The position numbers were made by a program, and so were the translations under genes. From Paragyromitra xinjiangensis (lineage: Eukaryota; Ascomycota; Pezizomycetes; Pezizales; Discinaceae), in assembly GCA_038503065.1 (NCBI GenBank), contig JBCAMK010000013.1, positions 1,837,864 to 1,901,863 of the forward strand: a DNA stretch of 64,000 bases, in the 5' to 3' direction. Shown piece after piece: positions 4,211 through 41,126 of the stretch. The notes below the pieces were generated by a model. It ran no database searches and was not told the DNA's origin. It saw nothing but the letters and a program-made list of their open reading frames with translations. Numbering within the stretch: position 1 is the first letter of the stretch; the number at the start of each line of letters is the position of its first letter.

Positions 4211-5487
4211 CTATTTGTCAAGAACGTCGTTACCGAAATGGATGTACTCCTTGGCAGGCTCGCGCTTGTCGAGGACATCATTGTCAAAGTGAATGTACTC
4301 CTTGGCAGGTTCGCGCTTGTCGAGGACATCGTTGTCGAAGTGGATGTACTCCTTGGCAGCATTGCGCTTGTCGAGGACATCGTTGTCGAAGTGGATGTAC
4401 TCCTTGGCAGGTTCGCGCTTGTCGAGGACATCATTGCCGAAGTGGATATACTCCTTGGCAGGTTCGCGCTTGTCGAGGACATCATTGTCGAAGTGGATAT
4501 ACTCCTTGGCAGCATCGCGCTTGTCGAGGACATCGTTGTCGAAGTGGATATACTCCTTGGCAGGTTCGCGCTTGTCGAGCACATCGTTGTCGAAGTGGAT
4601 ATATTCCTTGGCAGGTGCGCGCTTGTCAAGCACATCGCTGTCGAAGTGGATATACTCCTTAGCTGCCTCGCGTTTGTCGAGAACGTCATTGCCGAAGTGG
4701 ATATACTCCTTTGCGGCCTCTGGGGCGCGCTTGTCAAGGACATCGTTCCCGAAATGGATATACTCCTTCGCGGGCTCACGCTTATCTAAGACATCATTGC
4801 CGAAATGGATATACTCCTTTGCGGGCTCACGCTTGTCGAGGACGTCGTTGCCGAAATGGATATACTCCTTCGCGGGCTCACGCTTATCTAAGACATCATT
4901 GTCGAAATGGATATACTCCTTCGCAGGCTCACGCTTGTCGAGGACGTCGTTGTCGAAGTGGATATACTCTTTTGCGGCATCTGGGGCGCGCTTGTCAAGG
5001 ACATCGTTGTCGAAATGGATATACTCCTTCGCAGGCTCACGCTTGTCGAGGACGTCGTTGCCGAAGTGGATATACTCCTTCGCGGGCTCACGCTTGTCGA
5101 GGACGTCGTTGCCAAAATGGATATACTCCTTTGCGGCCTCTGGGGCGCGCTTGTCAAGGACATCGTTGCCAAAATGGATATACTCCTTGGCCGCCTCGCG
5201 CTTATCTAAGACATCATTGTCGAAATGGATATACTCCTTCGAGGGCTCACGCTTGTCGAGGACGTCGTTATCAAAGTGGATATACTCCTTCGAGGGCTCG
5301 CGCTTGTCGAGCACGTCGTTATCGAAGTGGATGTACTCCTTCGCAGCTTCACGCTTCTCGACGGAATCTGCTTTTTTGTTAGCATGGAGATCTTGATGGG
5401 AATAAAGGACTACAAACCTGGTACTGGCAGAGCCAAGACATTAGAGCCTAGCAAAGCAAGAGAGACGAGGGAGAGTTGATAACGCAT
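4211..5487 (-). CDS. Kex2-processed repeat RiPP precursor (dikaritin type)
   Basis: Predicted 408-residue precursor peptide in two exons, 5487-5418 and 5367-4211. The 50-nt intron has a GTTTGT donor, a GCTAAC branch site and a GCAG acceptor, and joins phase 1 in frame. Exon 1 begins at ATG 5487 and encodes a typical signal peptide (hydrophobic core LSLVSLALLG, then ALPVP). The rest is 22 tandem units of 17 or 19 residues. Each has the core EYIHF followed by D (13 units) or G (9 units), then N/S-D-V-L-D, and a Lys-Arg Kex2 site precedes every unit. The last unit ends in Lys and stop, with no final Arg. Spacers vary (EPA, EPS, EAA, APA, APEAA, APDAA, DAA, NAA). This matches the layout of ustiloxin and phomopsin precursors, whose Tyr-containing cores are cut out and cyclised. 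A UstYa gene lies divergently upstream. The core containing Tyr, His and Phe is not one I know from a described dikaritin. Family assignment is strong; the exact core boundaries are inferred. Confidence 0.9.
5418..5487 (-). other. Exon 1 of precursor: signal peptide
   Basis: 23 codons plus one base encode Met-Arg-Tyr-Gln, a hydrophobic stretch and a likely signal-peptidase site near Ala-Leu-Pro. This exon is needed because the repeat frame has no upstream ATG before a stop at 5441-5443. Confidence 0.8.
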
Positions 5488-6872
5488 TGTGAAGGCTGTG
5501 GGATGCTTGGAGAGGAATAAAGTTTTGGCTTGAGAGTAGAGGAATGAGCTGAGATGCTGTGATGATGAGGTTGAATGAGGGAGAAAAGAAGAGAACGAGA
5601 GCCCTTATATACATAGAGAGCGGGTGGCCCTTGAGGTTGATAGAAGTAAGCAATCACAAGCTGATGGTTAGAAACGTCTTAGGATTCGAAAATGTCTACC
5701 CGTCCGAATTGGCTGGCCTAGGGCAGGGAAGATCTTCACCGAACCGTTTTTCATCAGGAGCGATGATGACCCGGCATCTTGAGCCTGAACCCCACGAGAT
5801 TGCATTCATCACGAAGAAGCAAAACCTACTCAGATGAACCATCATCGCTAGGTTCAATTGGCCGAACCTGTTACTCCCGCTCCATGCGAGACGATAATAG
5901 CAAAGGCTGCAGATCACTACCCGCCGCACACGTACGATCATTACAAATTGTCAATGGCTGGACTTATTGCTTCAACTGGCGCAAGATGACATTGCGAAGG
6001 CGGAATGACAGTTCCTCCAAAGGTCATCTGTTGGATATCTCCCGTCTTGATGATTATTCAGGGCTCTTAGACCCCATTTGCCCCGCACATTGAAGTTGTT
6101 TGGATTTGGTAGGGTTTCTCCATTATCTTCCAATAAACCCTGCCATTGCTTATTGCTGATAATGATAAGCACTCGGGCCATGGGAGAAGTGACCGAAACT
6201 CGGGGGATATGGCCGCCGGGGAAAGGCTGGGGCTTGACTGGCTGGATTCTCGGAGAACAGACGCCCCCACCAACTAACACATTTAGTCCAGGCCCCCTGA
6301 TTTCGGATGTTTCCTTGAATGCTCTCCCCAGCCTAAGTGACTAGAAACAGGGGCTATGACTAGGATCAATTTTGTGGGGTGGCGTCGTGTACGAATATTA
6401 CAAAAGCGCTTGGATGCTTTCTATAGCTTAATTCTGACTGAAATATCGTATACGAACGAATTGCATCTTTGCCTAAAGTGACTGTGCCGTGGTCCCGCAT
6501 TTCAACTATCTCTAACTAGAAACTAATCAATGCACTGTACCATCACATGCAGACATCGGTCGAGCGTTGGGGAAGATGGAGGGATCGACGTAAACATGGA
6601 GGAATTATACACCTCAGAAATGGAGGCGTGGGATCAATCCTTGTTTTAGAAGATAATCTCAAATCTTCTAAGTCTCTCGCGCCATCCATTGAGCAGTTCT
6701 CATACGACCAGGGGCTTAGCCTCAGGTGATGCCAAAGACAGTGCTTCGGTATAACAGCCTTGAAAGCTTGCCAGGCCTTCATCCTCCCTAAAGGGCACTT
6801 CCTACTTCCTATTCAACTATCTTTTTCTACTACTACTGAATTTTTGGAACTGCGTCAACTTCAACTTCGATC
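5488..6872. promoter_or_regulatory. Divergent upstream region between precursor and UstYa genes
   Basis: This 1.4 kb stretch separates the 5' ends of the minus-strand precursor and the plus-strand UstYa gene, so it must hold both promoters. The open frames in it (up to about 104 codons) show no motif and overlap in many frames. I could not identify a specific transcription-factor site. Confidence 0.45.
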
Positions 6873-7979
6873 ATGTTCTTCTCGAAGAAGGGATATCTTC
6901 CCATGAGCAAAAAACGTCCTTCATACCACGACGACGGCACTGAGTCTGGCGAGTCTCTCGTTGGGGATTCAAGTTCTCGGAAGTCAAGTTCTGAGGAATT
7001 TGTTGTCCAGGAGAAACATGTTGTCTCAAGCATTCTTGGTGGCAGGAAGAGCCGTCTTTTGATCTTTCTCAATGTTGCTCTATTCTGTATATCGTTAATT
7101 TTCTTCACGATGGGGTACGGCTATTCTCTTCGCATCCGCCGCAATGTCAACAACACTCTTTTAAAAGAAACTAATTATTATTGTAAAAAAACCTCCTCCT
7201 TCACTATTCCCTAGGCTGGGTTCAAACGGTGTGTACTGACTTAGAAAACAGCCCCGCTTCTTGACCAGGTCCAGATATCACTCACGGATGTGCGAGTTAA
7301 TGGCTCGCTCCTCGATATGGACCACAGTATCTTCCGTCAACCTTCTAGCCCTGAGGTTGACGCTGCGTGGAACCATATTGCGGACCTCCGCCCCAGCTAC
7401 ATCACTACTGAGGATGTGATAAAGCTCGGAAAAGGTGAACGCCATCTAGCGGGAAGTTAGAAAACTCGGATTTCTAACCTTAATTCTTTAGATCCCTCTC
7501 GCACCGCTAGATATCCCGACGATTTTGGCCTTGGCCCCGATAAACACGTTGGTGAACTCGATGTCCTTCACCAAATACACTGCCTCAATGCAATCCGGCG
7601 AGATCTCGATTTCGAATACTATTTCCGGAAAAAATACCCCGATGGTGTCCTTCCCGAATTGCATAAAGTGCACACCTCACACTGTGTGTATATCATCCTG
7701 CAACATTTGATGTGTACGGCATCCACCGACATAGTTACGCAAACTTGGGTAGAGGGGCAAACGCACCCCTTCCCGGACTTCAGCATCAATCGGAAGTGTA
7801 GGGATTTCAACGCTATTCTAAAGTGGCAGGATGAGAATGTTGTTGAAACCGAGGCGTTTATGAAATTGAGGCGCCCAGAGGATCAAGTCCCGGTGAGAAT
7901 GAGTGATGAGTTCAAGAGGATGTTTGGGGTTGAAGACTGGGATAGCCACGATCACGATGACCACGCTCACCATGATTGA
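6873..7979 (+). CDS. UstYa-family (DUF3328) oxidase
   Basis: Predicted 326 residues from three exons: 6873-7182, 7252-7434 and 7492-7979. Both introns have good donors (GTAAAA, GTGAAC), branch sites (CTGAC, CTAAC) and AG acceptors, and the frame is kept. The N-terminus is polar and Ser-rich. One membrane segment lies at about residues 55-73 (LLIFLNVALFCISLIFF), with the catalytic region after it. The two family-defining HxxHC motifs are present: HQIHC and HTSHC. UstYa proteins are copper-dependent oxidases that hydroxylate, dehydrogenate or cyclise dikaritin core peptides, often through Tyr side chains, in the secretory pathway. The position next to a Kex2 repeat precursor makes that precursor the obvious substrate. 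The tail is rich in Asp and His (DSHDHDDHAHHD). Only one UstYa gene is visible, whereas known clusters usually have two or more. Confidence 0.9.
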
Positions 7980-8844
7980 GCACGGCTGAAAAAGGCGGCG
8001 ATATTGGCAAGGGGTGGTGTATGTACGAGTTTGGAATAGTTTACCGTGGGATGTTTCTTTATCCAATTATTTGCCAGCAATGTTTTTAGTAGTAAAGCAC
8101 AGACTCTCATATGTTGAGTAGGCGGGATATTAGTCTAGTGAATAGAACATGATCAATCTCTGCTCTCCTCGTACCGCCATAACCTATAGGGCTGAATGCT
8201 CCTCGTGTGAAGTTGAACTGTAGCCAAGCACATTGCGTGATAAATATCGATACCGAGTTTCACAACCGGGTTGAGCTCATAATCGAATTCTCATTATTTG
8301 AGTTTATGCCCTTGCCCGACAGTTCTAACCAATTAGATCTTACGGTCTGCTATCAAGCGGTTGATATAACCTATTTTTGTACGTATATACTTACCGAATC
8401 CGGGAAAGCAGGTATTACTAGTGGATGTCTTGAATCGTTGGGCTGCATATACGGATAAATAAGCTCTTGTCATCGAGATATAGGATCGAAGAATGCAAAA
8501 ACCGGGGAAGCGGGGGGCTGAGTCGAGTAATCCTCGGACAAGGCTGAATTAGGAAGGTGGTTGCAGTGATACCGCTCTGGAGTCAAGCCATGCTGCTAAT
8601 TCGCCACTATCTCTGACAGGTGTGGTCCGAGCTTCGGCGCGGAGCGGTCGCTGCAAGAGGAGTCTTTCATGTGTATCCCGCCCGCCCGCTCAACAGCCCC
8701 CACTGTAACTACTACCGCGGTAGGTAAAACCAAACAACCCATACCGCCCGTCTTACAAAAGCTGAATTTTGCTTCCGCCACTTACAGCTGGACGGCTCAG
8801 CGTTTTGAATGATGCCTCGAGAGTAGCCAATTCGAATTCAAATA
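7980..8844. other. Intergenic, nothing recognised
   Basis: This is 3' flank of the UstYa gene. Short open frames only, no motif, no tRNA seen. Confidence 0.45.
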
Positions 8845-9083
8845 CCGTAGGGACTCGTGAAATACAGACAGTTGCCAAGAGGGTAGCTTCCTGCCGAGTC
8901 GCCGGATTACGAGAATACTATACCAATTAAAGGGTATACTATACCGATTTAGGGGGTGCGTTGTGTCAATCTGTGAGCTGAAATCCCGACGTGTTGTTTT
9001 TGTGTTGCAAATCGATCTCTAGAAAGGTATAGTCTGGCAAGCTGCCCTCTTGGCAACGGTCTGTATTTCACGAGTCCCTACGG
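8845..9083. mobile_element. MITE-like element C (about 239 bp, TA target duplication)
   Basis: The ends are inverted repeats starting CCGTAGGGACTCGTGAAATA. The first 25 bp are perfect, and the arm is about 45 bp with 2 mismatches. TA flanks both ends (8843-8844 and 9084-9085). There is no coding capacity inside. It sits in the convergent gap between the UstYa and MFS genes, so it has landed within the RiPP cluster without breaking a gene. Confidence 0.8.
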
Positions 9084-10965
9084 TAGACACTGACTACATT
9101 TCAAGATCCCTGCATGGATTTCTCTGTTTAGCATATTCTGCACAGTGATAGGCGCAAGCAATCATCTGCTGTGTAGTACACCTCTGGGGATACTCGCAAC
9201 TAGTTCTGGATTCCTGTGGGCTGTAGGTACACGCGGGGAACTGGTCAAAGTAATGCTAGCACACGTAAGATAGAGAACCATGGGACCAACGTCTTGACCG
9301 AGGATGAAATTGGAAAAATTAAATTAAAAATCAATGTCTAGATTACTTATGCTAGGTACCCCTCGTGTATTCGTATTCCTATGGAAAACGATCTACAAAT
9401 ACCGTCGTGCCTTGATATGCTGAGCGCTTAGAACTCCATGTATCTTGTTTGGGGTAGAAAAATCATCGGGATAATATCCGAGGTACAGAATGAGATGCAA
9501 GCTCTTGGAATGGAAGGCCAGCGGCGAACGGAGGCCGGAGCTAGCCGTTGCAAGAGATATTGGATTATATATTCAAGCATTTCGCTAACCCGGATGAATC
9601 AGGGATTCGAGGTACTGGCATATCCAGGCGACTATACCTGCATGTGCAGATCACTGACATTAAACGGCCCGTCCCTGCATTGCATCGAGAGTGACCCCCA
9701 ATACATGATTAATAAGGCAATGGGAGCCCGTTCATCAAACGTTATTTGTTTAAGAGTGCCCATCTCTTCACCTGGTTATTTGATTTGCCGGTATAAATAT
9801 CTGACAACATTAAAACTAGCAGGGTTAAATTAAAGTTCGGGCGTAAGGCTTTGTGAGACTAAGAATGTTGTACCGTAATAGGATTTGCACGCCTAGGCTC
9901 CTGTAAAACCGTTGGGGAAGCTCAGGGGTCGAGATTCAGAGCTTTAATTGGCTTTCAGCTACTAGGGGAAGACTCCAGCGATGAATTTTGGCTCACCACA
10001 GAACCTCGGCTCATCTTAGAAGACTCTCCCGTAAGCCGTGCTTAGAGGTTGCTGATTATCATGACTTGCCTCGACCCGGTAGGGTAACTACTTTTCGCCC
10101 AACGGATTTGACATTCCTCGTATTTGGGCCGTCCTGGTATCTGGCCGACCGGAGATAGTACCTATATCTTCTAACCTCGAACGAGTTCAATGTGCTCATG
10201 GCCGTTTGTGGTTGGGACTGGGGGTATCTTGGTAAGATCACAACGCGTATCAATGGTATCATACGCCCGTACGTACCATCATCACGGCAAGGCATAGTTT
10301 CGTTTCGTTTCGCATGTGCCTAAATACCTGCCTCAAGCTAATTAATCGGCAGATCACTGCGAATTTACAGAAGTCGAAGCCCAATTATGAGTCGTAAGTG
10401 CAGATGGCCATCGAATTGTAATCAAGGTGGCAGGGGTCGGTTACCCTGTCGTGTCCTGTGGCTGGCCAAAGAGTGTTGTTAGTCAGCTAGATTCCAGTGC
10501 CTAGATCTGGCCACGCTAATTTATTCGCTAGCCAGCTTCCCTACTGGAATGTGAATATGTGAATACTAACCACCGTCTAAGCAGGATGCATCTCCACGGG
10601 CTTATAACCCGAATAAGGGATATTAGCCATTATCTTTACTCTTTACTGCTACACACGTAATATTATTGCAATTTCAAATACTTATGGCGCCACTTCGAAG
10701 CTCCGTTTCTAATAGGCGGGGAACTGCGTGCATACGCCTCCTGCTATCCTTTGGTACTGTTTCAACTCCATAGCATCTTTAGGAGTGAGATGCCATTTCC
10801 GGCGTTTTACGAACGATCATCTTAGATTCGAACCGCCCGGGGTCTTTTGGTTGGGAAAGAGAATATTTCCTATTTAGGTAATATAACTTCAGATCGATAG
10901 TTCCAGTTGCAGTATCATTGCGAGTTTCGTCTTACTAAACAAAGAATAGAGTTCCAAGCACGCAA
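9084..10965. other. Intergenic, nothing recognised
   Basis: Convergent gap between the UstYa gene and the MFS gene. The longest open frame (9438-9833, 131 codons) has no recognisable motif or splice partners. I see no second UstYa copy here: no HxxHC pair in any frame I read. Confidence 0.45.
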
Positions 10966-12862
10966 TTACATCGTGAAATTTTCTACACTAGCATTTCCCT
11001 CTTCCTCCTCGCCATTCAACGGCTCATATCGGTTGTCCGTTTTCAGTCTGACCAGAAACATGATAACCATTACAAATGCAAACAAAACCGCAGACACCAA
11101 AAATGGCAATCCAATCCATGCTCCTCCAAGCTTCATCCCCCAGCGAAATGCAACCGACAAGGCTGGACCTGCAATTAATCCGCCCAATGTATCAAAAACT
11201 GCGATACTGGTGTAGAGCTTCCCGATATTTGATGCGTCGACCATGGAGGTGATGAGACTACGGGCTGCTGCACCAAAACCCGAACCGAAGGTGTAGACCA
11301 TAAGGCCTGTAGAACTTAAAGTTAGTGAAATCTGATATGTGGATGGAATATAGGTTTAGGGCCTACCGATCACCATCGGCGCAGGGGCTGGAGAAATAGC
11401 GATGCCTAAAAAGCCTATGGTCATGAGGACGATACTTGTGCGTGAGATATAGAGGTCCTTTTTGCCGGGAGTCATCTTCCATCGAGCCATCATCAGGGAG
11501 CCCAGCGCTGGCAAAACTGCGAGCAAGAGAACTAGATTGACGCCAGCGCGGAGTGAGAAGAGAAAATTGGCCTACGAGTTATTTTTTAGTCAATAATTAG
11601 GATGTTTGATGAAAGTGCCCCTTCTAAGGATGGCTAAGACTTACCTTAGCTAGTGGCCATTCGTATCTCTTTGAGACATATTGCAAAAGCATTTCCATCG
11701 CTTGTCGACCGATTGTAGTCACAAAGAATGTAAAGATCAAGAGTGTCACATTTATGTCCTTGAGTAGGAAGAGCATAACCTCTCGATAGTTGCTTTCGCG
11801 AGGGCTCTCTTCCGAGCTACTTTTTAAGTTATCCTCCTCTTCATCTTCCTCTTCTTCGGTCGTTGTATTTAATGGTTGGGTATTCTCTGCCTTTGGGCCG
11901 CTTGTTTCAGGCAGCGCAAGGGCAATAGGTATTCCTAAAGATTGAACCCCCAATCCAATGAGCAATGGAGTCCAGACATTACGAGTCATGAGTACAGAGC
12001 CCAACAGCGGTGCTAGAAGCTCGGAAGATAGCACGCATGCTTGTAACTGGAAGAACATGGTCGATCTAGAAGCCAAAACCTCGAGTTAATAGGTGGTAAA
12101 GCTATATCTGAAGACAATCGTACCTCTGTTCCTCTGGGGTCACATCCGCAATTATCATGAGTATGAGTGCTGACCCCATCTGCGACCCGCCTCCGAGCAA
12201 TAGAAACATTGAAGATAGCCATGTAAGTTTAATCGGTAGTGAAAACCAACCTATTCGTTATTGCAAGTTAATAAAGCAACCGACGTTGAGGTAAGAAATG
12301 GTCGTACAAACTAAAAGAACCCAGGCGGCTGAGAGCGTGAGTCCAGCAAGCGTTACAACAAGAATAATCTTCCGTCCAAATCTGTCCGCGAGAACACCAA
12401 AAGGTATTGCGAGCACGACACCTATTTACGCCAATCAGCATACATAGATTTTATCTCGTTCCTGAGTTTGCCAGTACCCGGAATGTTTGAAAACAACGTC
12501 TGAAATCCATTCAACATGGCAATCTCGCCCTGTACTTGATCAATCTTGCAATGTTCCTCTGGAACGTTGCCATTTCCATCAATAAACCCCGGATCATTCT
12601 CTTTGTAGTAATCTAAGCAGATGATAGATTCAAAGAGACGGATTTGAGGCGCTGAACTTAGGTATGCTGCCATGTCTACCGTCACCACCAGGACGAAACA
12701 GAGCAGTGTAGCGTAGAATTGGGGGCTGCTCAGGAACCATCTTCGTCGGGCGCTGAGAAGAGCTGTGAACGGAAAGAACCATCTTTGCTCATTGTTGAGA
12801 GGCGTAGTGAACGAGGGGAGTTCCTCGCTACCGTCAATAGTGGATATTGTAGAGATTGCCAT
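10966..12862 (-). CDS. MFS transporter, likely product exporter
   Basis: Multi-exon gene read from ATG 12862 (Met-Ala-Ile-Ser-Thr-Ile) to the stop at 10966. Exon 1 is 12862-12478, followed by a 56-nt intron and several more short introns. The spliced reading gives a major-facilitator protein with about 12 membrane segments. The conserved loop after TM2 is present (FGVLADRFGRK), as is the DVTPEEQR segment near TM4-TM5, and an unusually acidic linker lies between the two halves (TTEEEEDEEEDN, from about 11880 down to 11810). Fungal MFS proteins of this type export small molecules by proton exchange at the plasma membrane. Its start lies 1.07 kb from the start of the divergent methyltransferase gene, which suggests co-regulation. 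The substrate is inferred from context only, and a vacuolar or nutrient transporter cannot be excluded. Confidence 0.85.
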
Positions 12863-13927
12863 GTCAATAAGGATGATCCGATACTCAAGAACACTGAACT
12901 ACCGGCTATGAATGAGGGGGTCGAAGAAGAGGGGAGCGTACCAAAAAGGTTGACGAGAGGAAGTATCAAGGTTCAGGGCAAACGGTTAGGGTGCGCATTC
13001 CCGTGCCATATGCCGTCGCCCTGGCGAATCCCGAATAGCTGTTGGCACCGCGATTAGAGAGCTCTTACACGTGTCGTGTGCCATTTCTGTGCCCGTTTTC
13101 TCGAATGGGGTGGGGGAACGTGACGGCGGGTACGTACTCTACCCAACTGGCAAGATAGAGTACTCTGACATGAGGTGAATACTGAGAACTGTTTCGTGCT
13201 GGTCTGTAGATTGCATGGCAAGTAATGATTTAGTGTAACCGTCGCTTGTGGGCTGGTTACTGTTCCTGTCTGCTTTAGGGTTCTTACTATTTCTTTGTAT
13301 TTAATTGATTACGGTTCTTGGTGCTGACCGTATCTTTTGGCACTCGAAAAAGAAAAGAAAGAAAAAAAAGGAAAAACCCGGTGAGAGACAAGAGCCAATG
13401 TCCCTGAATCGGGGAACTATTTACCCTTCGGGTCTTCTTACGTTTCCGAGATTTCGCTTATGTGATTGCGGTAGGGATAGTAAGAAGCTTTTGATCCTGT
13501 CAGCACTACCCGTTCGCAAAGCACACTGCACAGGGTGGCGCACAGTGGTGATAACAAATCACAGTAGATCCACATACCATGGGAGATTAAAACTCTCCCG
13601 TGAAACCCTGCTTATTCTTCAGGCTTGGACGCTTACGAAGGATGTTAATTTCGCCTTGCAATTGCATAATTCAACTATCAAGTCGAGTTATTGCTCGTAT
13701 CTCCGGTAAGTCGCATCGCATAAGCATAAGGAACAGATAAAGGAGGCGAATTCTAAATAGGAAGAGCTGAAGAGCCTAGTACTTAATTAAAAGGCGTAAC
13801 GAAACCTTGTAGCCTCTTCGATCTGCCAGAGTGACAAGCGGAAGCTGCGGCAGTACAAAGCTTTCTCAATACTTCCAATTCCCGATTACGCTGTACTCCT
13901 TCTATTGTATAGATACTCCGTGTGCTT
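12863..13927. promoter_or_regulatory. Divergent upstream region between MFS and methyltransferase genes
   Basis: This 1.07 kb stretch holds the promoters of both flanking genes. The open frames here (12719-13057, 13305-13709) lack motifs. No defined operator could be recognised. Confidence 0.4.
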
Positions 13928-14991
13928 ATGGCTATCACGGACGATCCGACGATCTCTCTCCTCTCTTCTAGCTACCTTCACAAACCTGCTCACCTCCACA
14001 CCCATGTAATTCCCCAGTTCCGCTATCGTCTTCAGCTGGTGTCTAAATTCAAAATCCCTCCTGGGTCGAGAGTTCTCGAGCTTGGGTGTGGTCAGGTTAG
14101 TTCACATTCCTCTGGCTGCTTCGGGTTTCGTTGCTGAAAATGAAAAAAACGTATAGGGCGAAACAACACTCGTGCTTGCACACATTGTCGGCCCAACGGG
14201 TCAAGTAGTAGGCGTTGATCCTGCCCGTCTGGATTATGGTAGGTTCTCACTATTTTCGTGCTGAGATGCCACTAATCCTTTCTCTCCAAACAGGCTACCC
14301 AATTACAGTCTCTGCCGCTCGTTCCCATATTCTCAACTCTCCGCTCGGCTCTCGCATCTCGTTCCATGCCCTCAATCCGTTGACTTACCTTGCTACCCTC
14401 CCTCCAGGCGAGCACTTTGACCTGATCATCCTCTCCCATAGCCTCTGGTACTTCCCTTCACACGCTAGCGTTTTAGAGACCCTTTCAGCCCTGCGTCCTT
14501 TTGCCCCCCGTCTTTGCGTGGTGGAGTACAGCTTTTCGTATTCACTGCCGGAGCAGATCCCGCATGTTTTGGCAGCAAAGTGTCAGGCGCTGTTTTACTC
14601 CTTCAAGACCCCCGAGCAGCGAGACGCCACGGAGCCGAATGTACGCTCTGCTCCGTCGCCAGAGGAAACAAGAATTCTGGCAAAGCAGGCAGGTTGGGGT
14701 CTCCGTTCCTCGGAAGAGGGAGTAGAAATTCAGGGAATTGTCACTCCTGCGGATGATGTTGGGGATGGCCAGTGGGAGGTTAAATGGGTTTGCTGCTTTT
14801 CGCAGTTTACGGACGAGATCGAGAGTGTGCTTAGTAGGGTTGACCAATTGAAAGCTAAAGAAGAGGTTTTGGATTTGAGGGAGCAGACGAAGAGGGCGTT
14901 GGAGAAGGTGAATAAAGGGGAGCTCGGGGAGGGAGATGTGAATAGGTGTAAGACTATGGATGTTTGGTGGGCGGATTTTGAGCGTGTGTAG
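13928..14991 (+). CDS. SAM-dependent class I methyltransferase
   Basis: Predicted 315 residues from exons 13928-14095, 14157-14238 and 14294-14991, with intron phases that join cleanly. The SAM-binding motif I reads VLELGCGQ across the first junction to GETTLVLA, which confirms the intron. Motif II follows (VGVDPARLDYG), and a motif III-like LIILSHSLWYF lies further on. The C-terminal third is charged and helical. The start was chosen at ATG 13928; the upstream in-frame GTG would be non-standard. In phomopsin biosynthesis a cluster methyltransferase N-methylates the cyclised peptide, and I infer a similar late step here. The gene runs divergently from the MFS exporter and convergently with the ABC transporter. 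It could also act as a general small-molecule methyltransferase, since the substrate cannot be read from sequence. Confidence 0.85.
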
Positions 14992-15918
14992 AAGATGTTT
15001 TGTAGTTTTGCTTTGGTCGCTATTATTACTCTATAAACGTAGGAAGTGCTTGGGCGCCTCGCTCTTTGTTCTATTCCTTTGCTCTTAGCTCGTAGTAGTA
15101 GTAGTATTTCATTTTACGTATCCAACCCCTCTTCTTAGCTCAGTTAATGTTCCAATTTGCGATTTATCATGTATCATTTGAGAATTAAAAGAAATGGTAT
15201 TCTGCCTTCAAATCCGCTACGTCTTCATAATCTCAATCAATAAACAAGTAATTTAGTACTCCATCCTGTCTGGTTCTTCCCGGGTATCTCTGGGTTGATT
15301 CGGAACAAGACTCCAAGATTGGGTGGGATATGTAGAATTTTTTTTGGTGGTAGATAGCAGTTGGAGTTATTTGTCCTGGCTATTGAATTAGGACTTAATC
15401 TACCTTGGTATGGGGGATGAATGTGTTCTGGCCCATTTACCATATATGGCCGGTAGCAAAGTGAGATAAATCCAACTATTACTCGTGGCTACTACTCATA
15501 GCTATGAGTCTCTTTTATTTTAATGTTATCACTTTACATAGCTAACCGAATTGTAGCTATGCATGAAGGTTTTCGTGCTGAATCACTTGGTACAAGATTT
15601 CTAGGCCCTACACCACCTAACTAACCCCAATAACTAAACCCTCTTGGCCGAGATAATGACCATGGTTTTTTTTGAAGATCTTGAAGCATTATGTTATCCT
15701 GGTCGTGCTCCAAGAAACCCACTGCCTCCACAAACGAATAAAGTAAATACGCGACCAAATATCCAGCTTAAATATTGATAATTATAATGATGGTCCAGAG
15801 ATATAAAATTTATAAATGGAAAAGGCAAAAACTGGGAAACATTTGTCCATAATAGAAATCCAAAGTAAAGAAACCATCGATCCACCACCGGAAATAAACC
15901 AAGTTATCCTTCCTAGCT
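14992..15918. other. Convergent gap between methyltransferase and ABC genes
   Basis: AT-rich 3' flanks of two convergent genes. It contains a short TAG/TCG-rich simple stretch near 15092-15110. No gene is supported. Confidence 0.45.
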
Positions 15919-18900
15919 CTATTTCTTGAACCCTTTAAATAGAGGATTACTCGCCACCAGCTTCTCAGGTGTATCAAAATCTATTAGCACACCCTTATCT
16001 AGAACCGCAATCCTTTCATATTCCAGTGCGGAGCCCAGTCTATGAAGTACGGCAATCACTGTGTGTTCGCGGAACTCCTCTTCCACGATTCGCTGCATTA
16101 GCTTTTCGGTGGCGATGTCAACGCTATAGCAGCGTTAGTTTTCCATTCATTGCGGTAGAGAACAGGGAGACAGGAAGACAAACTTGCTTGAGGCCTCGTC
16201 CAGCAACAAGACCCGCCCCTCGCTCCTTTTGATTATAGCTCTCGCGAGACAAAATAATTGTCTCTGTCCCGCGCTCAGGCCCTCTAGATTCATCTCTCCA
16301 TCTAATCCTCCGAGTTCATTTATTTTATCCCACAGTTCCACCCGCGTTAATATTTGAACTAGCTCCTCGTCGGGGGTACCGCCTTTGAGGTCGAGGTTAG
16401 CCCGAATAGACCCGGGGAAGGCATATGCATCCTGCGGAATGACGTTCAAATGAGAACGGGCATAATGCCGAGAGATTGTTGAAAGGTCGATATCATCAAT
16501 GAAGATAGCTCCAGAGGTGAGATCGAGCATTCGGCAGAGGGCAGTGAGCAGGGATGTTTTGCCGCTGCCGCTGCGTCCGCAAATTGCGACTTTCTGACCC
16601 GCTTCAATTCTTAGGGAGACATCTTTAAGGACCGGAGCTGCTTCTAATCTAATTGTTTCAAGCCAGGCGTCAGCTAATAAGCCCTCTATCGTCAATGGCT
16701 GAAACAGGGATTGGCAAACCTATATGCTGCTGAAATACCCTTCAACTCTACAACACCTTTGCTTGGCCAATTATTTGGTGATTCGGAAATTTCATCCGAT
16801 GTAGTCTCATTCGGTGTCTCTCGCTTAAACGTTTCCAACCTTGCAATAGCCCCCATACTAGTTTCCAGACCTGTCCAAGAAATAACAAGATTTTTCAAAG
16901 TTTCACCAAGCGTTGTGATATTGACCAAAGCAAGACCAACTGCACCGGTACTGAGCATTCCCGCCCGGCCGACAGCAATGCCTATGATAATAACTGCCAA
17001 TGCAGCAACGACTAAATCCAGAACTAGTGTGAGCCATACTTGTACGCAGTATAGCAGGTAAAACGGTTTCTGTGAGGCATCAAGGACCCGGTGGTTATTG
17101 TCCCGGAAGTGAGACTGCCAGCCAAAAGCACGAATGGGCGCAAGCCCACTGGAGGTCTCGAGGAAGTGGGCATATAGGGGAGATTTAGCTTCAAGATCCA
17201 TGAGACGGAGTTGTTTAGAGGTGCGAAGGTAGAATCTCTGGATAATGTAGACAGCAATGGCTATGAAGGGAAAAGCGACGAGTATAAAGGCCGACGCAGC
17301 TGCGATTAGACCTATCTGCACGATAAAAGTAAGGCCCTCTAGCAGAATCAGAGTCAGCTCGGGGAAGTTCACCAAATAAGCGGACGCCCAAATAACACAC
17401 CTGATACTGTGTTCAATAGAGATAGTGGCAATGTGCCATCGATTAAGAGCATATCTTGACTAAATCTGCGAATTCTTTAGCCTCTTCTCATCTCAAACTG
17501 CAAACAACTAGCGTACCTATTGGTTGTAACACCAGTGTCGATACGGCTTATAAAAGGGAAGGGAGCACTATAACGGCAGTCAGCATTTTGCTGGTCCCTA
17601 GGGCTGCGTCGGGCGGTTCACCTCATGACAGTCTGAAGTAACTCGCGATGAAGATTTCTCCCGGATGTTGCTACCACTCCATGAAATAGATGCCTAAAAG
17701 ATATTTAATAGTGTTTAAAGAACTGGGAAACAGAATACGCCATACCAAGCCCAACCGCAAAGCGAAGTAAACGCCATGACGTTAAACGCTGCATAAACTC
17801 CAAGATAGTATCCATTCCTCTCGTTCGGGTGTTCCGTGTTGGAAATTGACCACCATGTGAGCCACTGATCTATAAATTAAGTGGTTAGAATAGTCGAGGA
17901 TACGAAATGGATTAGTGGCCGAACCGGGAAACTTCAGGAGAACAGCAAAACAAATTCCTCCAAGCAAGAAGATGACCGTATGAAGCTTCCCAATCGCTCT
18001 GAAGTAGTACATGTATACATCCCTGTCCCTTGTGTTTACGTGTTTTCCATTGCTTTCATCCTCGGTGGGCTCTGTTGTTTCTGACCCAGGTTGTTGGTCT
18101 TCACCTGAAGTACCTGCTTCATGCTCTGTAGCGCCTTTGCTCTCTTTCTTAGTGTCACAGAGAGACTTAACATATCCATCTGCCGCCATGATTGCTTCGG
18201 GTTTCCCTTGCTCAACTATCCGCCCGTTTGATCCTAGTGCAATAATCCAGTTGGCATAGCGAAGATAGTGGACTAAAACACTCTATTAGCTCTTGGAGAA
18301 TTTATCAAGTGCAAGGTTCATACCCGCATTGGTAGCAAAGACTACGGTTGTCTTAAGGCGTCTTAAAATTCCATCATCTCCCCAAAGCCGTTCGAACAAG
18401 AGGTCCTCAGTAATGCGATCTAAACCGGAGAAGATATCATCTAATAGCAAAATATCTTTCCGGGAGTATAGCCCCCGCGCTAGAGCCTAATATATCAATA
18501 ACGTAAGCAACTTCTCGATATCCATCAGAGGGTCATATCACACCAGCCGTTGTTTCTGTCCTCCACTAAGTTTGGTTCCTTTGCTACCGACCATAGTTCC
18601 ATCACCCTCTGGAAGTTGTTGAATATCCTGCTCCAACACACATGCGTGGATAACAGTTTTGTACCACTTCTCATCAAGGTCCATCGGCCCAATTACATTC
18701 TTCCGCAAGGTGTCATTAGTTAACCATGGTGACTGATCACAAAACGCAATCTGTGTGGAAGACACCGAGACCGATCCTTTCAGGCGTAAAACTTCGCCGA
18801 GCAATCCTTTCAACAAGGTACTTTTTCCGCTTCCTACCGGTCCAAGAACCATCACCAATTCCGCAAAGCCGATTCGGATGTCGATGTCTTGCAAAACAGG

Positions 18901-21092
18901 ATTTGAATCAACACTCCAGCCAAAGTTTCCATCACGAACAACGATTGCCGAGCGAGCGTCGTCGTTGGTTACTGGCTGCAACTCCCTAATGGGTATTCCC
19001 TCCTGTTCGACCCATGAAGAATCCGATGAACTATCTTTTCTGAGGTAGGGTTGAAGAGAGTGTTGCTCTCTATAATCGTGTCTTGCTGTCGTTGTGAGGA
19101 ATTCTTGAATGCGGGTCATGCAACTGACAGCTGCGCTTAATGCTGGTAAAGCTTGAAACAGGTTAATCAACGGAGATGCGAGCAATGAAATGAGTGTCAA
19201 CGACGTGAACATCCTGGGAACGTCTAAGGTAGTTCCGTTTTGAGCGGCTATTGCTGTGAAAGATGCGAAAACCAGAACCGGAGAGAAAATCAAGGTTGCG
19301 TAAGCTTTAGCGAGCAGGATATCTAGTTAGCATTCTTCTCCACTCTAGGGTTAGATTCATATCTTTGCGTACAAAGGCCCACAGAGTATACAACACAGCG
19401 CCGGAATCGTTTTGCACTCTCAATCTCACTGATCCTAAGACCCTGGAGTATGTCGAACAATCGCCTCTCTAGACTTAACATTTTCACGGATTTTAATGAT
19501 CCCAACATGGTAGCAGTGGCATCGACTCTTGTCTGGATTGCCTGGATCCAGACCCTCTGGCAGGTACTAGTTACAGCTGATACCTTACCAATACCAAAAG
19601 TACAGACTAGCCCGAGATGTCAGCAACTCGTACCACGCAATTCAAGGATACGGCGGTCTTCTACAAACCTAGAGAAAGTAGGACCATTGCAAGGCAAGCG
19701 AGGCCGATTTGACGTTCAAGCAGCCAGGTGGCCAACGCTACTTCGAGAATATTCCCCCACGGTTCATTAATAAATTTCAAGCCATTGACTATCCTATCGA
19801 TATCGGCGCTCATCAAGGTGACAGCTACCGACTCCTGCATAGCCGTAGGGTCCAAAACCAGCATCTTGTCGTAGACGACCGAAATGAGACCCCCTCTGAT
19901 CATGGTTATGACTCTGTAGACACGATGCCAGTACCAGGTGTTTGAGGCCTAAGAATATGCGTGAGACATGCGAAGCGGAAGAGCGATTTAAATACGTACC
20001 GCAATACCGATATAGACAAGCCCATATGCAACCATCAGACTGTAGCCTACCGCTTTGTCGCTGTGTCCGGACTCCCCTAAGTACTCGATCACTCTGTTGA
20101 CAAGGAATGGTTGCGCAAATGTGAAGCCAAGCAAACAGAGTCTGGGAAGAACAGGCGCTAACAACGGCCACTTTAAGCTTTTGATGACGACCCAAATCAA
20201 GGCGTATTTCTGTTGTTTGAGGGATGTAGCTAACGAAAGAAAGTAGAATTATTAGCGCTAGGATCCGGGCGAGAATGAGGGTCGTAGGATACGAACAAGC
20301 CTGGGATTCCCAATGTTTACGGAACTCATGTCCTAAGAAATCCGAGGACATGGCAGCATCTGTGGGATATAGGTCCTCCGGTAAGAGAATTTTTCGGTAA
20401 CCATTCTTCAGAAGCCCAAATAGCCATAGAAGAAGAGTCTGGCTAAAGACTCCGCTCGTTTCTTCGGGGGAGCCTTGCACATCCTTGCTAGTCAAATAAC
20501 GCCTTTTGCTCGTAGACTCCAGACCGAGGAGGACAAGTTTCACGGCAACAGTCGCTGTAAAGAGCGCAGAGACGACAGACTCCTGGTCGGCAAGCCAAAG
20601 GGTTCTGGCACGTGCAGCGTCAAATATGAGGGTAAGGAATAGGTAGACACTCAGCAGAGGCGAGGGTCGGATTGCCCTTCGGTGTTCGAGATGGGAAAGC
20701 CAGCATACAACGAACGCGGCGGCCAACGATATTGCAGCCGTGGGAATTGAGGTGCGAGTGCTGAAAGAGCTGCGAGTACACCATAGAACCAGGAAGACGA
20801 GCTGCAGACATCCGTATATAACCGTCGCTATCTGTGTACAACCGCTGTCAGCCAATGCATGTGGACCTTCGAGGTAGCGACTCACCAGTTTAGCTGTGTG
20901 CAAATGCCCATCTCGTACTCTCCTCCCCCGGCCGAGAAGGGTTTTGAGTCGAACGGAGGCCAGCAAGAGAAAGGATGCAGCTGGAGCAATAGATAATATA
21001 CTCTCTTCAAAGAGCAGAGTGAAGTCAAACGACCGACGGCAAGCTTGGACGGCGGGGCCAAAAAGGTCATCAGCCCTATAGGAACAGTCCAT
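15919..21092 (-). CDS. Full-length ABC-C (MRP-type) transporter
   Basis: Large gene broken by about ten short introns, from ATG 21092 to the stop at 15919-15921. Domain order fits an ABC-C protein. There is an N-terminal set of membrane helices (TMD0), then TMD1. NBD1 has Walker A GPVGSGKST near 18840-18810, signature LSGGQKQR at the end of an open frame near 18540, and a Walker B with LLLDD in the next exon. TMD2 follows, then NBD2 with Walker A GRSGSGKTS near 16580-16555, signature LSAGQRQ, Walker B VLLLDEASS, and an H-loop VLHRL. The Asp in place of the catalytic Glu of NBD1 is usual for this family. The C-terminus ends NPLFKGFKK. The frame shifts between open segments are explained by introns with good GT-AG and branch sites. 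Such proteins export or vacuole-load conjugates and peptides. It lies between the methyltransferase and the peptidase, which suggests product export or self-protection. Individual exon borders are not all resolved. Confidence 0.85.
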
Positions 21093-21763
21093 GGCGGGTT
21101 TCTAGTTGACTGACGGTGGTGGTGGGGGTGGTGGTGTATATAGGTTGGTGCACGTGAGGAAGAACACACGAACTACGGGGAAGGCACGCGGGAGTTCAGT
21201 CGAGCACAGCCGCAATCAATTACGGTTATCGAAGTTTTGGGATGAATTCAAGACGACTGATAGAGGGGCAGATTTACATATGGGTGGAGTGGTCTATTGG
21301 CTAAGGCTGACCTTCCAAGTCTCTCCCGGAACCCTTGATGCTTCCAAAGATAGCTGGCAAGATTATCAAAGTATTTAAGGACCGGAGAGCCCTGAGAAAG
21401 CCCCTCTCTGCTTAGTCAGCGGTGGAAATGTATTCAAATTCAGTGGACGAATAAGAGATTCCCCCGTTAGATATTGGTAGCAATCTGTTATCGAACCATC
21501 CCTGCTGCGGCAGCAATACATGTATGCTGCATGCATTCACCTTCTGCAAGTGGTAAGAGGACTGCAAATCCGTCGTGTCACCAACGGAGGTCTCTCGCTT
21601 TCCCGGTCAGCATCCAATTCCTTACTCTGCAGTATTCGCATGTGTGCTGATTATTAAATATCCTCTTCACGGCTCTTGAAATAATCCTCTCATCCCGTGT
21701 TCAGATGAGGCTCCTCCCAGTTTATTGCTCTTGCTCTCTGCTGACTGAAGTCTTCCCATTCTA
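21093..21763. promoter_or_regulatory. Divergent upstream region between ABC transporter and M3 peptidase
   Basis: This 671-bp stretch is shared by two divergent starts. It contains a GGT/GGGGG simple repeat at about 21115-21138, a CACGTG E-box-like site at about 21152, and CT-rich tracts close to the peptidase start. Site function is not established. Confidence 0.45.
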
Positions 21764-24261
21764 ATGGCACGAATATCTTCTTTTGTTTTATCTTCAATTG
21801 CCATCATCTTTGTGCTGCTCACTACTGCATGGACAACTTCTCTCTCTCTCTCGGTCATCATTGAGCCCCTCCGCTCAAAACCCCAGAAACCAACTTCCCA
21901 GACTCCTCTATCGCCACCTGTTACTCCTTTGCGTCTACCGCCACAAGCACCAATTGCATTCAACGATACCCCGATATCGTTCGAAGCGGAAGTGTCAAAA
22001 ACAATCTCACGGTCTCAAAATGTATTGAATGGGATAGCGAAGGAAATCACTCCTGAAACTGCAGCATTCGACAATGTCCTACGTCCTATGGCTCAAGACG
22101 AGAACTTGATGATCTCGTTGAGGAATTTCCTCGTATCTCAACAGCTCGCCTCGCCCCACCAAGAGATTCGAACCGCAGCTATTGATGCGCTGGCCGTTCT
22201 GAACGACTACCTGGTGGAAGCCTCCACGCGGGAAGATATGTTTAAGCTGGTTGATGCGGTGATGCGAAAGAAGGAAGACTTGGACCCGGAATCGCAACGT
22301 TTGTTGGAGGATGAATACCGAAACAATATACGAGACGGTCTACATGTCCCACCGGGCCCCGAACGGATTCATCTGGAGGAGGTCGAGAAGCGAATCAGTC
22401 AGCTATCGTCTATATTCCAGCAAAACCTTATCAATGCGGATGGTGGGCTCTGGTTCACACCTCAGGAACTCGAAGGCTTACCCGGGTATGTCATCTCGCG
22501 TCTCGAAACGGGTACGGGTGAAAACGAAGGTAGACTGTTTCTTACCTTTGAGCATCCGGATGTTTCTGCCGCGCTGCAGTATGTCGCCGATGGCAAAATC
22601 CGGAAAAAGATCTTTACAGCAAACGAGAATAAGTGTCCAGAGAATATACGGGTTTTCGAGGAACTCATCGTGCTCCGGGATGAGGCTGCAAGGCTTCTCG
22701 GGTATCCTAATTGGGCAGCTTTCAGAATCGAGGCTCATATGGCGAAGAATATAACCTTTGTGGATGACTTTCTGGAAGATCTGAGAGCTGGCGTCATCCC
22801 TATTGGGGTTGAAGAGGTGAAGTATCTCAAGCAACTGAAGTCGCACCATTTGGAGTCCGAAGGGAAGAAAATGGATGCAGACTATCATCTTTGGGATCAG
22901 AAGTATTACGATCGCCTCCTCATGGAGCAAGAGTATAATATCGATCATCACGTACTAGCAGAGTATTTTCCGTTGGAAACTACTCTTGAAAGAACACTAC
23001 AAATCTTTGAAGATCTACTTGGGCTGGAGTTCGTCAAGATGACACGTACATTATGGGACGAGCTGATGGACCCTAACGATGAATCGGGAATGGTATGGCA
23101 TGAAACGGTAGATGCTTATAGTGTTTGGGATAACTCCCAAAGTGGGGGCAGCTTCGTCGGATATCTGTATTTGGACCTTTTCCCACGGGTCGGTAAAACT
23201 TCACAAGCAGGCACCCTTAATTTACATCTCGTGAGTTGACGATATCCTTTCTGGCGTTTAGGTGGACTCGATTAATTCTCCCCTAGAAATTTTAATTGAC
23301 GATATCATCAGAGTTATATTGATAAAGACGGTCACCGGCATTACCCATCCACAGCAGTTCTCTGCAATTTCCCCATGCCCACAGCAAAGAAACCCAGCCT
23401 CTTGAAACACGATGAAGTCGTAATTCTTTTCCACGGTAATCTCTCCTACTCCTCTCTTAGTGTTTCTTAGCTTAACTCGTTCTCCTTCTCCCCACAGAAC
23501 TTGGGCACGCAATGCACGACCTGCTCAGCCGTGTGACGTATTCCCGCTTCCACGGAACCCACGTAGCCTCCGACTTTGCTGAATTTCCTAGCAAAATGCT
23601 CGAGAACTGGGCTTGGTCTTCTACCATCCTATCATCGCTAGGCCATCACTACTCCTATATCTCACCTGAATATTTGTCGACCTGGAAAGACGAAAACCCA
23701 CATGCCAACTCACTCCCACCGGTGTCAATACCTGATGACCTCATCTCGAGACTGACAGGGGCAAGGCGGGTCGGTGGTGCACTGAATACATTGCGACAAA
23801 TACACATTGCAAGCTTCGACATGAAGATTCACTCCCCACCCACACATGCATCCCTTTTTGACCCGTCGTTCTCGATAGCAGCACTATATAATGACCTTCG
23901 AGCATCCATCATTCCCGTTTCTGGCCCCAAGACAGACCCTACGCATCTAAATAAGTGGGCACACGGCTATACGACGTTCTCCCACTTGGTGACGGGGTAT
24001 GATGCGGGGTATTACGGGTATCTGTTATCTACTTCCTTTGCGGCAGACGCCTTTATAAACCATTTCTCGCAGGACCCTTTAAATGTAACGGAAGGAAGGC
24101 GTTATCGAGAAGCTATCCTAGAGAAAGGGGGGGCTAGGGATGAGATGGAGATATTGGTGGATTTTTTGGGGAGGAGGCCAAGTACAGTAGCTTTCTATGG
24201 GGAACTAGGGATTGGGAAGGGAGGTACGAATGAGACTGGAAGACAAGGGGAGGGGAATTAG
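21764..24261 (+). CDS. M3-family oligopeptidase with signal peptide
   Basis: Predicted 784 residues from exons 21764-23230, 23312-23435 and 23498-24261. The introns (81 and 62 nt) are supported because the second junction completes the zinc-binding HExxH motif (FHELGHAMH), and the middle exon supplies the conserved KHDEVVILFH lead-in. The third zinc ligand is the Glu in DFAEFPSKMLENW, and the family's C-terminal GYDAGYYGYLLS is present. It is a thimet-oligopeptidase/saccharolysin relative. Unusually for this mostly cytosolic family, residues 1-28 form a signal peptide or signal anchor (FVLSSIAIIFVLLTTAW), which would place it in the secretory pathway beside Kex2. The phomopsin cluster contains an oligopeptidase of this family (established knowledge), so I infer that it trims spacers from the Kex2 fragments of the precursor. 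Its start faces that of the ABC transporter. Confidence 0.9.
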
Positions 24262-27040
24262 CGAGATATATATCAGGAGGAAATTATGGGTGTAACCGTA
24301 TTAGTACGATCTTGGTAAACTAGTAGGAATCAAGGGATCCGAAGGAGGAAGCCTTCCGAACTTGAGAGAAAACGTCTGGCTGGAGAGAGAGAAATGAAAC
24401 TGTAGTAACTGTTGCGGTGCAATACATTTTTGGGAAAGGCGATAAGAGTGGTGTGGAGTGTGTGGAGTGTGTGGAGTGTGTGGAACCATGTAGGGATTGT
24501 AGAGAACGCAAACGAAGATTAGTACTGCATGCGATGTTAATTAGGAGATTCTATTTGTCTTCATGACCTCCGTTTGTTGAGAGGTGCCCTGCTTATTTTG
24601 CTAGGTGGAAGGCTGGCCCGTTTCATTTGCAACGGATTGATCGATATGATGACACTTCTATAGATCAGATTTCTCCAGAGGCCTATTTTATGGCGCGCTG
24701 CTTCAGGCACTCTTCCGGCAAAGATGTCATCCAGCCTGCACGGTATGCTAATCATGAAATATCACTCGATATATCAGAAGTCCTGAAATTTGAAGAATTT
24801 TCTTGTATTAATTTCTGCGCTCTGTTTGTATTCGGGATAGAGTACGGCTCCTCGATTAAGTCTTCCCTGCCTCTGATCTCGATATCCAACAGTATACAGC
24901 TGCAGTCTTACGTGCACCGCAAAAGACACGTGCGCTAATGGCTAGGCCAACATGCTAATAGTGCTATCGGAACTACAACCCCACCCGACAATACCCGCAC
25001 ACCCAAAATCAACACTGGGGTAGAAACTTCCTATTGATAAGGGGTATTATATAAGAGATACGTTACATAACAGATCGGTGAGGAGAGGTGAATTAATTAC
25101 ATGGTAGCGAGATAAGATGTTTATCTACTGATCAGATAAGATTTTACACACCACAACCCCCTACTAGTATAGTAGCTACAGGCAGGGGCAATCCCAGGGT
25201 GAGACAGTTGTTAGTGTAGGTTTCCCTTCTCACTGGTTGGACAATATTAACACGACGGTATGACTTGGGTGTGCCACCAGGCCCAATATCCCGAATTACA
25301 TTGCAAGAATTGTATATTGGCGGAGTAGCAGAGCGAACTAGGCTAGTGGTATTAATGCTCTGACCGTCCTAGGTTTAATTAGTGTTGGGTGTAAAGTCAG
25401 GGTCAGGGTTTTCTGCGAATAGCGCTCCAGCAACAGTGAAGCCCCACTCTCAACAGCCAATGCCCCTAAATTAGCAGAAACTCAAATATATCTCTCCTAG
25501 TAGTAGGCGCTGGAGTGAATGACGTCATCGCCCTGCAGCTGGTACTGGGTGGTTAGTCTAGACCTGTAAGAGTTCATTCAACAGTTAACAGTGTTGGGTA
25601 CAATTATGCTACCTATAAAGCCGACAGTGGTTAGTTTGTAATACGTCCTGGGGTTCTGTTTACCACGGAATACAATCCGTGGCCCACCCATTCCTAAAGC
25701 CGAGACGGCCGGGCTGACAGGCTTTCGGTCACCGACCTGAATGGTATACTACTGGCCCCTAGGCGCGCCCTGTTTGGAAATTTGGAACAGAGTTTGAGTG
25801 AAGGAAATAGAACAAGCAAGAGACGGGCGTTCTGAGCACTGACAAACATAGCACCATTTAATTTCCTTCGGTGGGAGCTAAAGCTAGTGAATAGCACATT
25901 AACCTCGATACAGAATGGGTAGTAGTTTTGGGGGCAATTTGAGACCGGTAAAAGACTTTCTAAGTAGTTGACGGAGTGTTACTATAGATTAGCTTCCATA
26001 AGCAATGGCCTAAGCGGTAAGACTTTAGGCGGGAATAAGAATTTTATGGGTGGTCTAGATTGTTCTTAATTGTGAGCCCTCGTTAGAAGCTTAAGGCGTA
26101 CGTTCGTGGCTCCTAGCGATTGAATACATCAAAGAGGCCCCCTATACGGTGTCAGATTAGCACCTAGAATAGAACAGGATTTATAGTGTAGGTAGATAGC
26201 ATAAATACCTCGTTCAATACCTAGTGTCTTCCGTTCTCAGTGGGATAATCAACTAAATTATATCGATAAACTTACCTGTTAAGTATGCGTAAATGCATCA
26301 ACATGAAAAGAAAGACTAACTTTAGGCTCACCCTCCCTCTTTACCCCTAGTGCGCATACAGATCCGAGGTACATACGTATCTGTCTCAACTTGTGGTGGA
26401 AAAGAAGATGCAAACCGGGATGGCGAGGGAGGCAAGACGCGAATATAGTACGAATGGCGGCGGAAATGGGTTTGTTTATAGGTATCGGTTGGCAGCTTGA
26501 CTGATTGTGGAGGCGGGCCGCACATAGCGTATCCTCATACAGATGTGCAAGAGCTTTTTATTGATGGAATATAAAATGACAGCACGCTCCAAGATCTTTG
26601 TCATGAAATGAATTGTAAAAGCTTATTCTAGTCATGAAAATATCTCCCTTGAAAGATGTCCCGGCACGTACTATAGTGAGGTGAGGACAGATTTCAGGCT
26701 AATCAAGTGCGGAAAGGGGTGAATTCGATCATGCCGCTGTAATCCTTCGTATAATTGTTTGGACTCACTTGTTGAGTTGCCAGCTGCCCACTGAATACTC
26801 CAGTGATAGAAGTGGTGCCAATCCACGAAATGCAATACCCATAAACCTTTTCGAGACCTTTCAATGGAACCATCAATCTTTGCTATAAAGCAAGCCAGAA
26901 TCCCACCCTTCCTTATTTTTACGGCATACAGAACTTATCAGAACGATAAAAACTAACGGGAGCACACTAATTACACGTCTAAAAGACAACTATCATCAGT
27001 TTTTTAAGTTCGAAAACAGAACAAGCTTTTTCATTGTAAA
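24262..27040. other. Intergenic, 2.8 kb, no gene recognised
   Basis: The peptidase 3' flank holds a short tandem GTGTGGAGT repeat (about four copies, 24453-24484). The rest is AT-rich with CCCAACA/TGTTGGG words near 25380-25600 that could be worn retroelement ends, but I could not pair any long terminal repeat. No open frame above 103 codons has a motif. Confidence 0.4.
24453..24484. repeat. Short tandem repeat, GTGTGGAGT-type
   Basis: About four head-to-tail copies of a 9-10 bp GT-rich word downstream of the M3 peptidase gene, in its probable 3' untranslated region. Confidence 0.7.
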
Positions 27041-40885: not shown

Positions 40886-41126
40886 CAGGGAATAGTGTCG
40901 TAATTTGTGTAGTTAAAACTGTAGAAAATGGGCTGCAGGAATAAATCTTGGGGTGGAAAGGTAAGTTGTTCCAGTGTCTAGTAGCCTAGGGGACAAATGC
41001 GACATTAACCCTTAAATACAAATAGCGCCTCAACTTCCAAGCGTTTGGGGTGGTACGACTCCCTCTAGTAAGAAGGTGCAGCTTGAATATATTAACACAT
41101 ACCATTTCAAATGCACACCTAGCCAA

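Follow-up and report, generated by a model that had tools for sequence, protein, structure and literature searches.

What kind of peptide is made, and by what route, at a locus where a gene for a repetitive secreted protein stands head to head with one for a UstYa-family (DUF3328) oxidase? Such a locus lies in the terminal 64 kb of a contig of Paragyromitra xinjiangensis (JBCAMK010000013.1, here C13; the genome comprises 48.2 Mb in 22 contigs), and this stretch of 64,000 nucleotides, hereafter the window, had been read in a first-pass annotation as carrying a six-gene, phomopsin-type cluster for a ribosomally synthesized and post-translationally modified peptide (RiPP). That interpretation is partly supported: all six genes are present where they had been placed, and we favor, with a probability of about 0.6, a ribosomal peptide system of the dikaritin-like, UstYa type whose precursor is built in the style of alpha-factor.

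The Kex2 repeat precursor proposed earlier was borne out. The spliced product is composed of MRYQLSLVSLALLGSNVLALPVPDSVEKR followed by 22 KR-delimited repeats, encoded by an array of 22.1 tandem copies of 51 bp (score 1278), and the repeats conform to [XA/XP]-[A/S]KEYIHF[D/G][N/S]DVLD-KR, with the last ending in K and a stop codon. The N-terminus is hydrophobic and, read without a dedicated signal-peptide predictor, resembles a signal peptide; a signal peptide and KR-separated repeats are the features by which Kex2-processed repeat proteins (KEPs) are recognized. All four matches of the repeat in the genome are positioned inside the precursor array. Pfam also linked the precursor with FARP, Mistic and SpvD (E 1.8e-6 to 2.7e-5), and two of these matches exceed the family cut-off; as no single stretch passes alone, we attribute them to the repetitive sequence and reject them as an identity for the protein.

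The repeat is under strong constraint, common to most of its length. The DNA of all 22 repeats is distinct although YIHF is constant, which places the array beyond chance: comparison of the 231 repeat pairs yields, within YIHF, 295 synonymous differences and 0 nonsynonymous ones (proportions pS 0.77 and pN 0), a large contrast drawn from pairs that are not independent of one another. The Tyr residue is present in 22/22 repeats. The residue following YIHF is D in 13 repeats and G in 9; at this position D is encoded by two different codons and G by three, which points to both forms having persisted for some time.

A feature overlooked in the first-pass annotation is the dipeptide XA or XP that follows KR in every repeat (EP 13, AP 4, EA 3, DA 1 and NA 1), its first residue being E, A, D or N. 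By its sequence this spacer is the STE13 signature as in ascomycete alpha-pheromones. Repeat intervals, measured for 21, are 17 residues in 18 cases and 19 residues, one dipeptide extra, in 3. Trimming of XA/XP by a dipeptidyl aminopeptidase would yield one common start, AKEYIHF (SKEYIHF in 2/22). The genome contains one P_proprotein match of the Kex2 type and two DPPIV_N loci as candidates for Ste13. Published accounts of the signature concern alpha-pheromones and certain repeat proteins of basidiomycetes (PMC6339444, PMC9769878); in literature on Ste13 and RiPPs and on dipeptidyl peptidases and ustiloxin precursors, seen in part, we found no description of STE13 spacers together with UstYa in an ascomycete.

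The start of the UstYa gene is 1.4 kb from that of the precursor, and the region between these divergent genes is likely a bidirectional promoter, judging from the coordinates. The UstYa gene is intact (PF11807 at E 2e-54) and encodes an N-terminal hydrophobic helix and the two HxxHC motifs claimed for it, H191-x-x-H194-C195 and H225-x-x-H228-C229; H191, H194, C195, H225 and H228 are invariant and C229 is nearly so in an alignment of 42 sequences. Of the two definitions of dikaritins in use, a five-gene one and a broad one, the latter takes just such a DUF3328 protein with two HxxHC motifs as defining the class (PMC12048977). The join between exons 1 and 2 is backed by a Morchella importuna relative, LAJ45_05170, which is 77% identical to the window protein. 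A genome search in which the best candidates were scored and introns ignored gave two PF11807 matches. The second, C12:1317800-1318402, has 9 in-frame stops, with the first HxxHC visible and the second not seen, and looks like a decayed divergent paralogue, introns being possible; the 10 kb around it contain no precursor like that of the window, the one tandem array there being short (22 bp, 1.9 copies). Among the best-scoring candidates, the window UstYa thus appears to be the sole intact-looking one of the genome.

A UstYa tree was built from 43 rows, namely the window protein and 42 named rows of the 120 matches listed. In it the two Morchella-type proteins, from the window and from M. importuna, form the sister group of 14 rows from genera that include Penicillium, Hortaea, Colletotrichum, Beauveria, Cordyceps and Claviceps, and the 16 together have support of 99/98. 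C. graminicola and B. bassiana are among the species with ustiloxin/phomopsin-type repeats (PMC6339444), a likeness at the level of species. No sequence relative of the window UstYa was found in the PDB (best E 0.077, a receptor subunit), and the AlphaFold-predicted fold of its M. importuna relative (mean pLDDT 74.1) matched no PDB entry at E <= 0.001; structure therefore gave no UstYa mechanism. In a survey of KEPs, DUF3328 was among the 15 closest genes of 1758/7878 (22%), most often in the very next position (PMC7329392), a pattern that a precursor adjoining an intact-looking UstYa fits.

The families assigned earlier to the four remaining genes were also recovered (Table 1), with TMD0_ABC, ABC_membrane and two ABC_tran domains in the ATP-binding cassette (ABC-C) transporter and Peptidase_M3 in two pieces, HELGH included, in the M3 oligopeptidase. 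The major facilitator superfamily (MFS) protein is a probable exporter, and it and the S-adenosylmethionine (SAM)-dependent methyltransferase probably belong to the cluster. The methyltransferase has relatives in three Morchella species and is 64% identical to the M. snyderi and M. sextelata proteins, has a 35% paralogue on C11, and resembles structure 3bkx (E 2.3e-31). Together with the 77% for UstYa, the 64% identity suggests a source that is a morel or near kin. The M. importuna counterparts of UstYa and the methyltransferase have the locus tags LAJ45_05170 and LAJ45_05168, and the longest contig is listed as 1,096,648 bases for each of them; together these data imply the order UstYa-x-methyltransferase, as in the window, where x is the MFS gene. 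M. snyderi and M. sextelata are represented by a methyltransferase row, but neither has a separate UstYa row in the best 120 of 164 matches; this does not amount to absence, since the UstYa row of M. importuna represents four sequences clustered at 90%.

Membership of the ABC-C and M3 genes is uncertain. The genome has three M3 loci, of which the cluster copy is 35-50% identical, piece by piece, to a MepB-like copy on C1 and 27% identical to the third. The cluster M3 appears from its sequence to be a fast-evolving MepB-type paralogue: its branch length of 3.26 compares with a median of 0.24, and that of the C1 copy is also long at 1.52. It has an N-terminal hydrophobic segment (signal or anchor), whereas the C1 copy, read by eye and with an upstream exon possible, is without one. 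Relatives were drawn from the best 120 of 805 matches, 117 of them M3 rows and many without a species name; 80 of the 117 exceed 700 residues, and a hydrophobic N-terminus in 6 of these 80 means that a secretory M3 is not unique to the cluster. A known clade of secretory M3s was considered and rejected: in a tree of 30 rows, comprising the cluster M3, the C1 copy, all six relatives with hydrophobic N-termini and 22 further selected relatives, the seven proteins with such N-termini do not form one clade, and the placement of the cluster M3 is unsure.

For the dikaritin-like system we infer every chemical step as follows. The precursor would enter the secretory pathway, where Kex2 would cleave after each KR, Kex1 would take off both basic residues, and XA/XP, one or two dipeptides per repeat, would be stripped by a dipeptidyl aminopeptidase of the Ste13 type to leave a uniform 13-mer, mostly AKEYIHF[D/G]NDVLD. 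UstYa, anchored in the same membranes, is predicted to oxidize the invariant Tyr; the most likely bond would be a bridge from Tyr-O to the beta-carbon of a neighbor in YIHF, with the partner residue a guess. Flank trimming, possibly by the M3 peptidase, may follow, the methyltransferase may cap the product, and the MFS transporter, perhaps with the ABC-C pump, would export or compartmentalize it. N-methylation, as suggested in the first-pass annotation, is a guess from one generic SAM-methyltransferase. Computed [M+H]+ values, linear and with one crosslink respectively, are 1578.743 and 1576.728 for AKEYIHFDNDVLD, 1520.738 and 1518.722 for AKEYIHFGNDVLD, and, for two cores that trimming might leave, 694.320 and 692.304 for YIHFD and 636.314 and 634.298 for YIHFG, a crosslink shifting the mass by −2.016 and a methylation by +14.016.

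The STE13 signature makes a pheromone-like alternative real, and the main rival is a linear secreted signalling peptide, alpha-pheromone- or hormone-like, matured by Kex2, Kex1 and Ste13 while the neighboring UstYa acts on another substrate. In ascomycetes the signature is described as "generally only dedicated to" alpha pheromones, and as absent from the ustiloxin, phomopsin and epichloecyclin precursors (PMC6339444); constraint covers the whole, nearly invariant 13-mer beyond YIHF, and non-RiPP pathways also use UstYa proteins (PMC12048977). The KEP survey runs counter to a linear peptide, with DUF3328 near 0/227 alpha-mating-factor and 3/216 putative pheromone KEPs; it was found near 17/76 KEPs homologous to six basidiomycete STE13-type putative pheromones, so that by these counts STE13 spacers with a UstYa are unusual for an ascomycete, though hinted at in basidiomycetes (PMC7329392). 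Also contrary to it, UstYa is the nearest neighbor of the precursor and is transcribed divergently from it, and the Pfam scan gave no MF_alpha match at E <= 0.01, a result on pheromone homology that rests on Pfam and 7991 scored candidates rather than on comparison with named pheromones. We know of no alpha pheromone that the acidic YIHF peptide resembles. On balance we consider a linear peptide unlikely. A structural or surface KEP, or an unexpressed repeat, is much less probable still: the similarly laid-out Rep1 forms amyloid-like fibrils (PMC9769878), while the repeat here is strictly conserved despite synonymous turnover and has UstYa adjacent.

Several findings weigh against the dikaritin-like system beyond the spacers themselves. 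The K and E before YIHF and the DVLDK after it are likewise invariant in 22/22 repeats, and conservation therefore does not show the final core limits. A search of a capped set of 7991 scored candidates, which were proteins of limited length, gave no precursor homologue at E <= 0.001. Tyrosinase (PF00264) has 26 matches in the genome and none on C13, and the core is KEYIHF in 22/22 repeats rather than EDYXI, with Ile at Tyr+1 and not Tyr+2. The last two points also bear on the first-pass filing as phomopsin type, which is too strong and which we reject on tyrosinase, on S41 peptidase (two genome matches, none on C13), on the single UstYa and on the core; what stands of the RiPP reading is a precursor divergent with an intact UstYa, a constrained Tyr repeat and the implied UstYa-x-methyltransferase order. 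A narrower version of the favored explanation, compatible with it, would restrict the cluster to the precursor, UstYa, MFS and methyltransferase and treat the ABC-C and M3 genes as unrelated subtelomeric neighbors. The UstYa-methyltransferase linkage implied in M. importuna is in line with this, as is the lack of a Morchella-named M3 among the 117 rows listed, many of them nameless and from the best 120 of 805 matches; the hydrophobic N-terminus and very long branch of the cluster M3 are instead features that a recruited paralogue might show. We regard this minimal cluster as a serious possibility at somewhat under even odds.

The dikaritin-like cluster would lie about 40 kb from a chromosome end, as the contig ends (63787-64000) in 26 copies of TTTAGGG, a plant-type telomere repeat; the 30 bases after this array are presumably an untrimmed Nanopore barcode, which they resemble. 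A correction to the earlier picture of six genes with nothing unrelated between them is that 8.0-10.9 kb is not gene-packed and contains a palindromic repeat. Palindromes resembling miniature inverted-repeat transposable elements flank the precursor/UstYa pair on both sides (8843-9085, 1733-1978 and 2021-2515, with arms of 47, 68 and 39 bp that are 93-100% complementary). In the 20-kb left flank, 5 of the 15 listed open frames were scanned, giving short-chain dehydrogenase/reductase, MFS, sugar-transporter and ankyrin matches and one frame without a match; tblastn found no UstYa there, and the left border of the cluster is provisional. Ankyrin-repeat proteins are encoded on either side of the cluster (38312-40912 and L022:3661-5217). 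To the right of the M3 gene are a frame with a Myb-like match below the Pfam cut-off (27008-27733) and a 703-residue frame that is internally repetitive and matches no Pfam family (28568-30679). Farther on, an open frame at 32251-33687, whose match to DDE_3 falls short of the Pfam cut-off, is probably a transposase, and three of four large open frames at 52187-60607 match ABC_toxin_N, Neuraminidase-like and TcA_TcB_BD (E 2.6e-104), which marks a Tc-toxin TcA-like gene, likely of bacterial origin, in a fungus.

Table 1. Genes of the putative peptide cluster and the region between precursor and UstYa, in window coordinates
Feature	Position	Strand	Structure	Product and match
Precursor	4211..5487	-	exon 1 5487-5418, intron 5417-5368 (50 bp), exon 2 5367-4211	408 aa
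Shared intergenic region, precursor/UstYa	5488..6872			
UstYa/DUF3328 oxidase	6873..7979	+	exons 6873-7182, 7252-7434, 7492-7979	326 aa
MFS transporter	10966..12862	-	six exons	530 aa; MFS_1 2.1e-24
SAM-dependent methyltransferase	13928..14991	+	three exons	315 aa; Methyltransf_31 2.8e-10
ABC-C type transporter	15919..21092	-	many exons, approximate ends; gene pieces read, not spliced whole	
M3 oligopeptidase	21764..24261	+	one of several possible intron-1 models	~784 aa

A more specific proposal, which we consider tentative and rather doubtful, is that a pheromone-style, Ste13-trimmed precursor gives a UstYa-cyclized peptide, with a secretory M3 as recruited trimmer, D and G congeners, and perhaps the role of a cyclic hormone rather than a toxin. 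If true, this would connect the linear alpha-pheromones with the cyclic dikaritins within the ascomycetes. Umemura proposed that repeat precursors originated as mating factors of linear form, with cyclization a later development; a mating-factor processing code beside a cyclizing enzyme would be the intermediate predicted and would make the proposal testable (PMC7329392). It would also be a UstYa-type peptide in a morel-like fungus: a literature search, with sources seen in part, found nothing on Morchella with UstYa and only general reviews on Morchella with Kex2. As an antiSMASH "Fungal-RiPP" cluster is listed in the Pezizomycete Sphaerosporella brunnea (PMC10455484), the window is not the first RiPP prediction in the Pezizomycetes.

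Compared with known systems, the locus shares with the ustiloxin and phomopsin clusters a signal peptide, KR-delimited Tyr-containing repeats, a UstYa-type enzyme and a methyltransferase. Those clusters differ in containing a tyrosinase and more DUF3328 proteins, two for ustiloxin and five for phomopsin (PMC7329392), and in having EDYXI and precursors free of the STE13 signature (PMC6339444), the window precursor having XA/XP in every repeat. The ustiloxin core is YAIG and the phomopsin ether links Tyr and Ile, whereas here Ile directly follows Tyr and His is at Tyr+2; the peptidases named for dikaritins are S41, whereas the oligopeptidase here is M3 (PMC6514808). Measured against the five-gene definition, the window is without a tyrosinase and has one DUF3328 gene rather than several, besides the degraded-looking copy on C12; a methyltransferase and transporters or peptidases are present by family, which is the level of this comparison rather than PhomM/UstM homology. 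The asperipin-2a cluster (aprA, aprY, aprT and aprR) likewise combines one UstYa-type enzyme, a precursor of the ustiloxin kind and a transporter, with no tyrosinase among its four genes (PMC6514808, PMC12048977); it differs in its core, FYYTGY against YIHF[D/G], and in having a reductase, and the window adds a methyltransferase, a second transporter and the M3 peptidase. The basidiomycete KEPs with STE13 signatures have the spacers in common with the window precursor but belong to another phylum. Ascomycete alpha-pheromone precursors match the window precursor in their signal peptide, KR sites, XA/XP dipeptides and repeated peptide, but DUF3328 is rarely nearby in their case (PMC7329392), whereas the window precursor has an immediate UstYa partner and no MF_alpha match.

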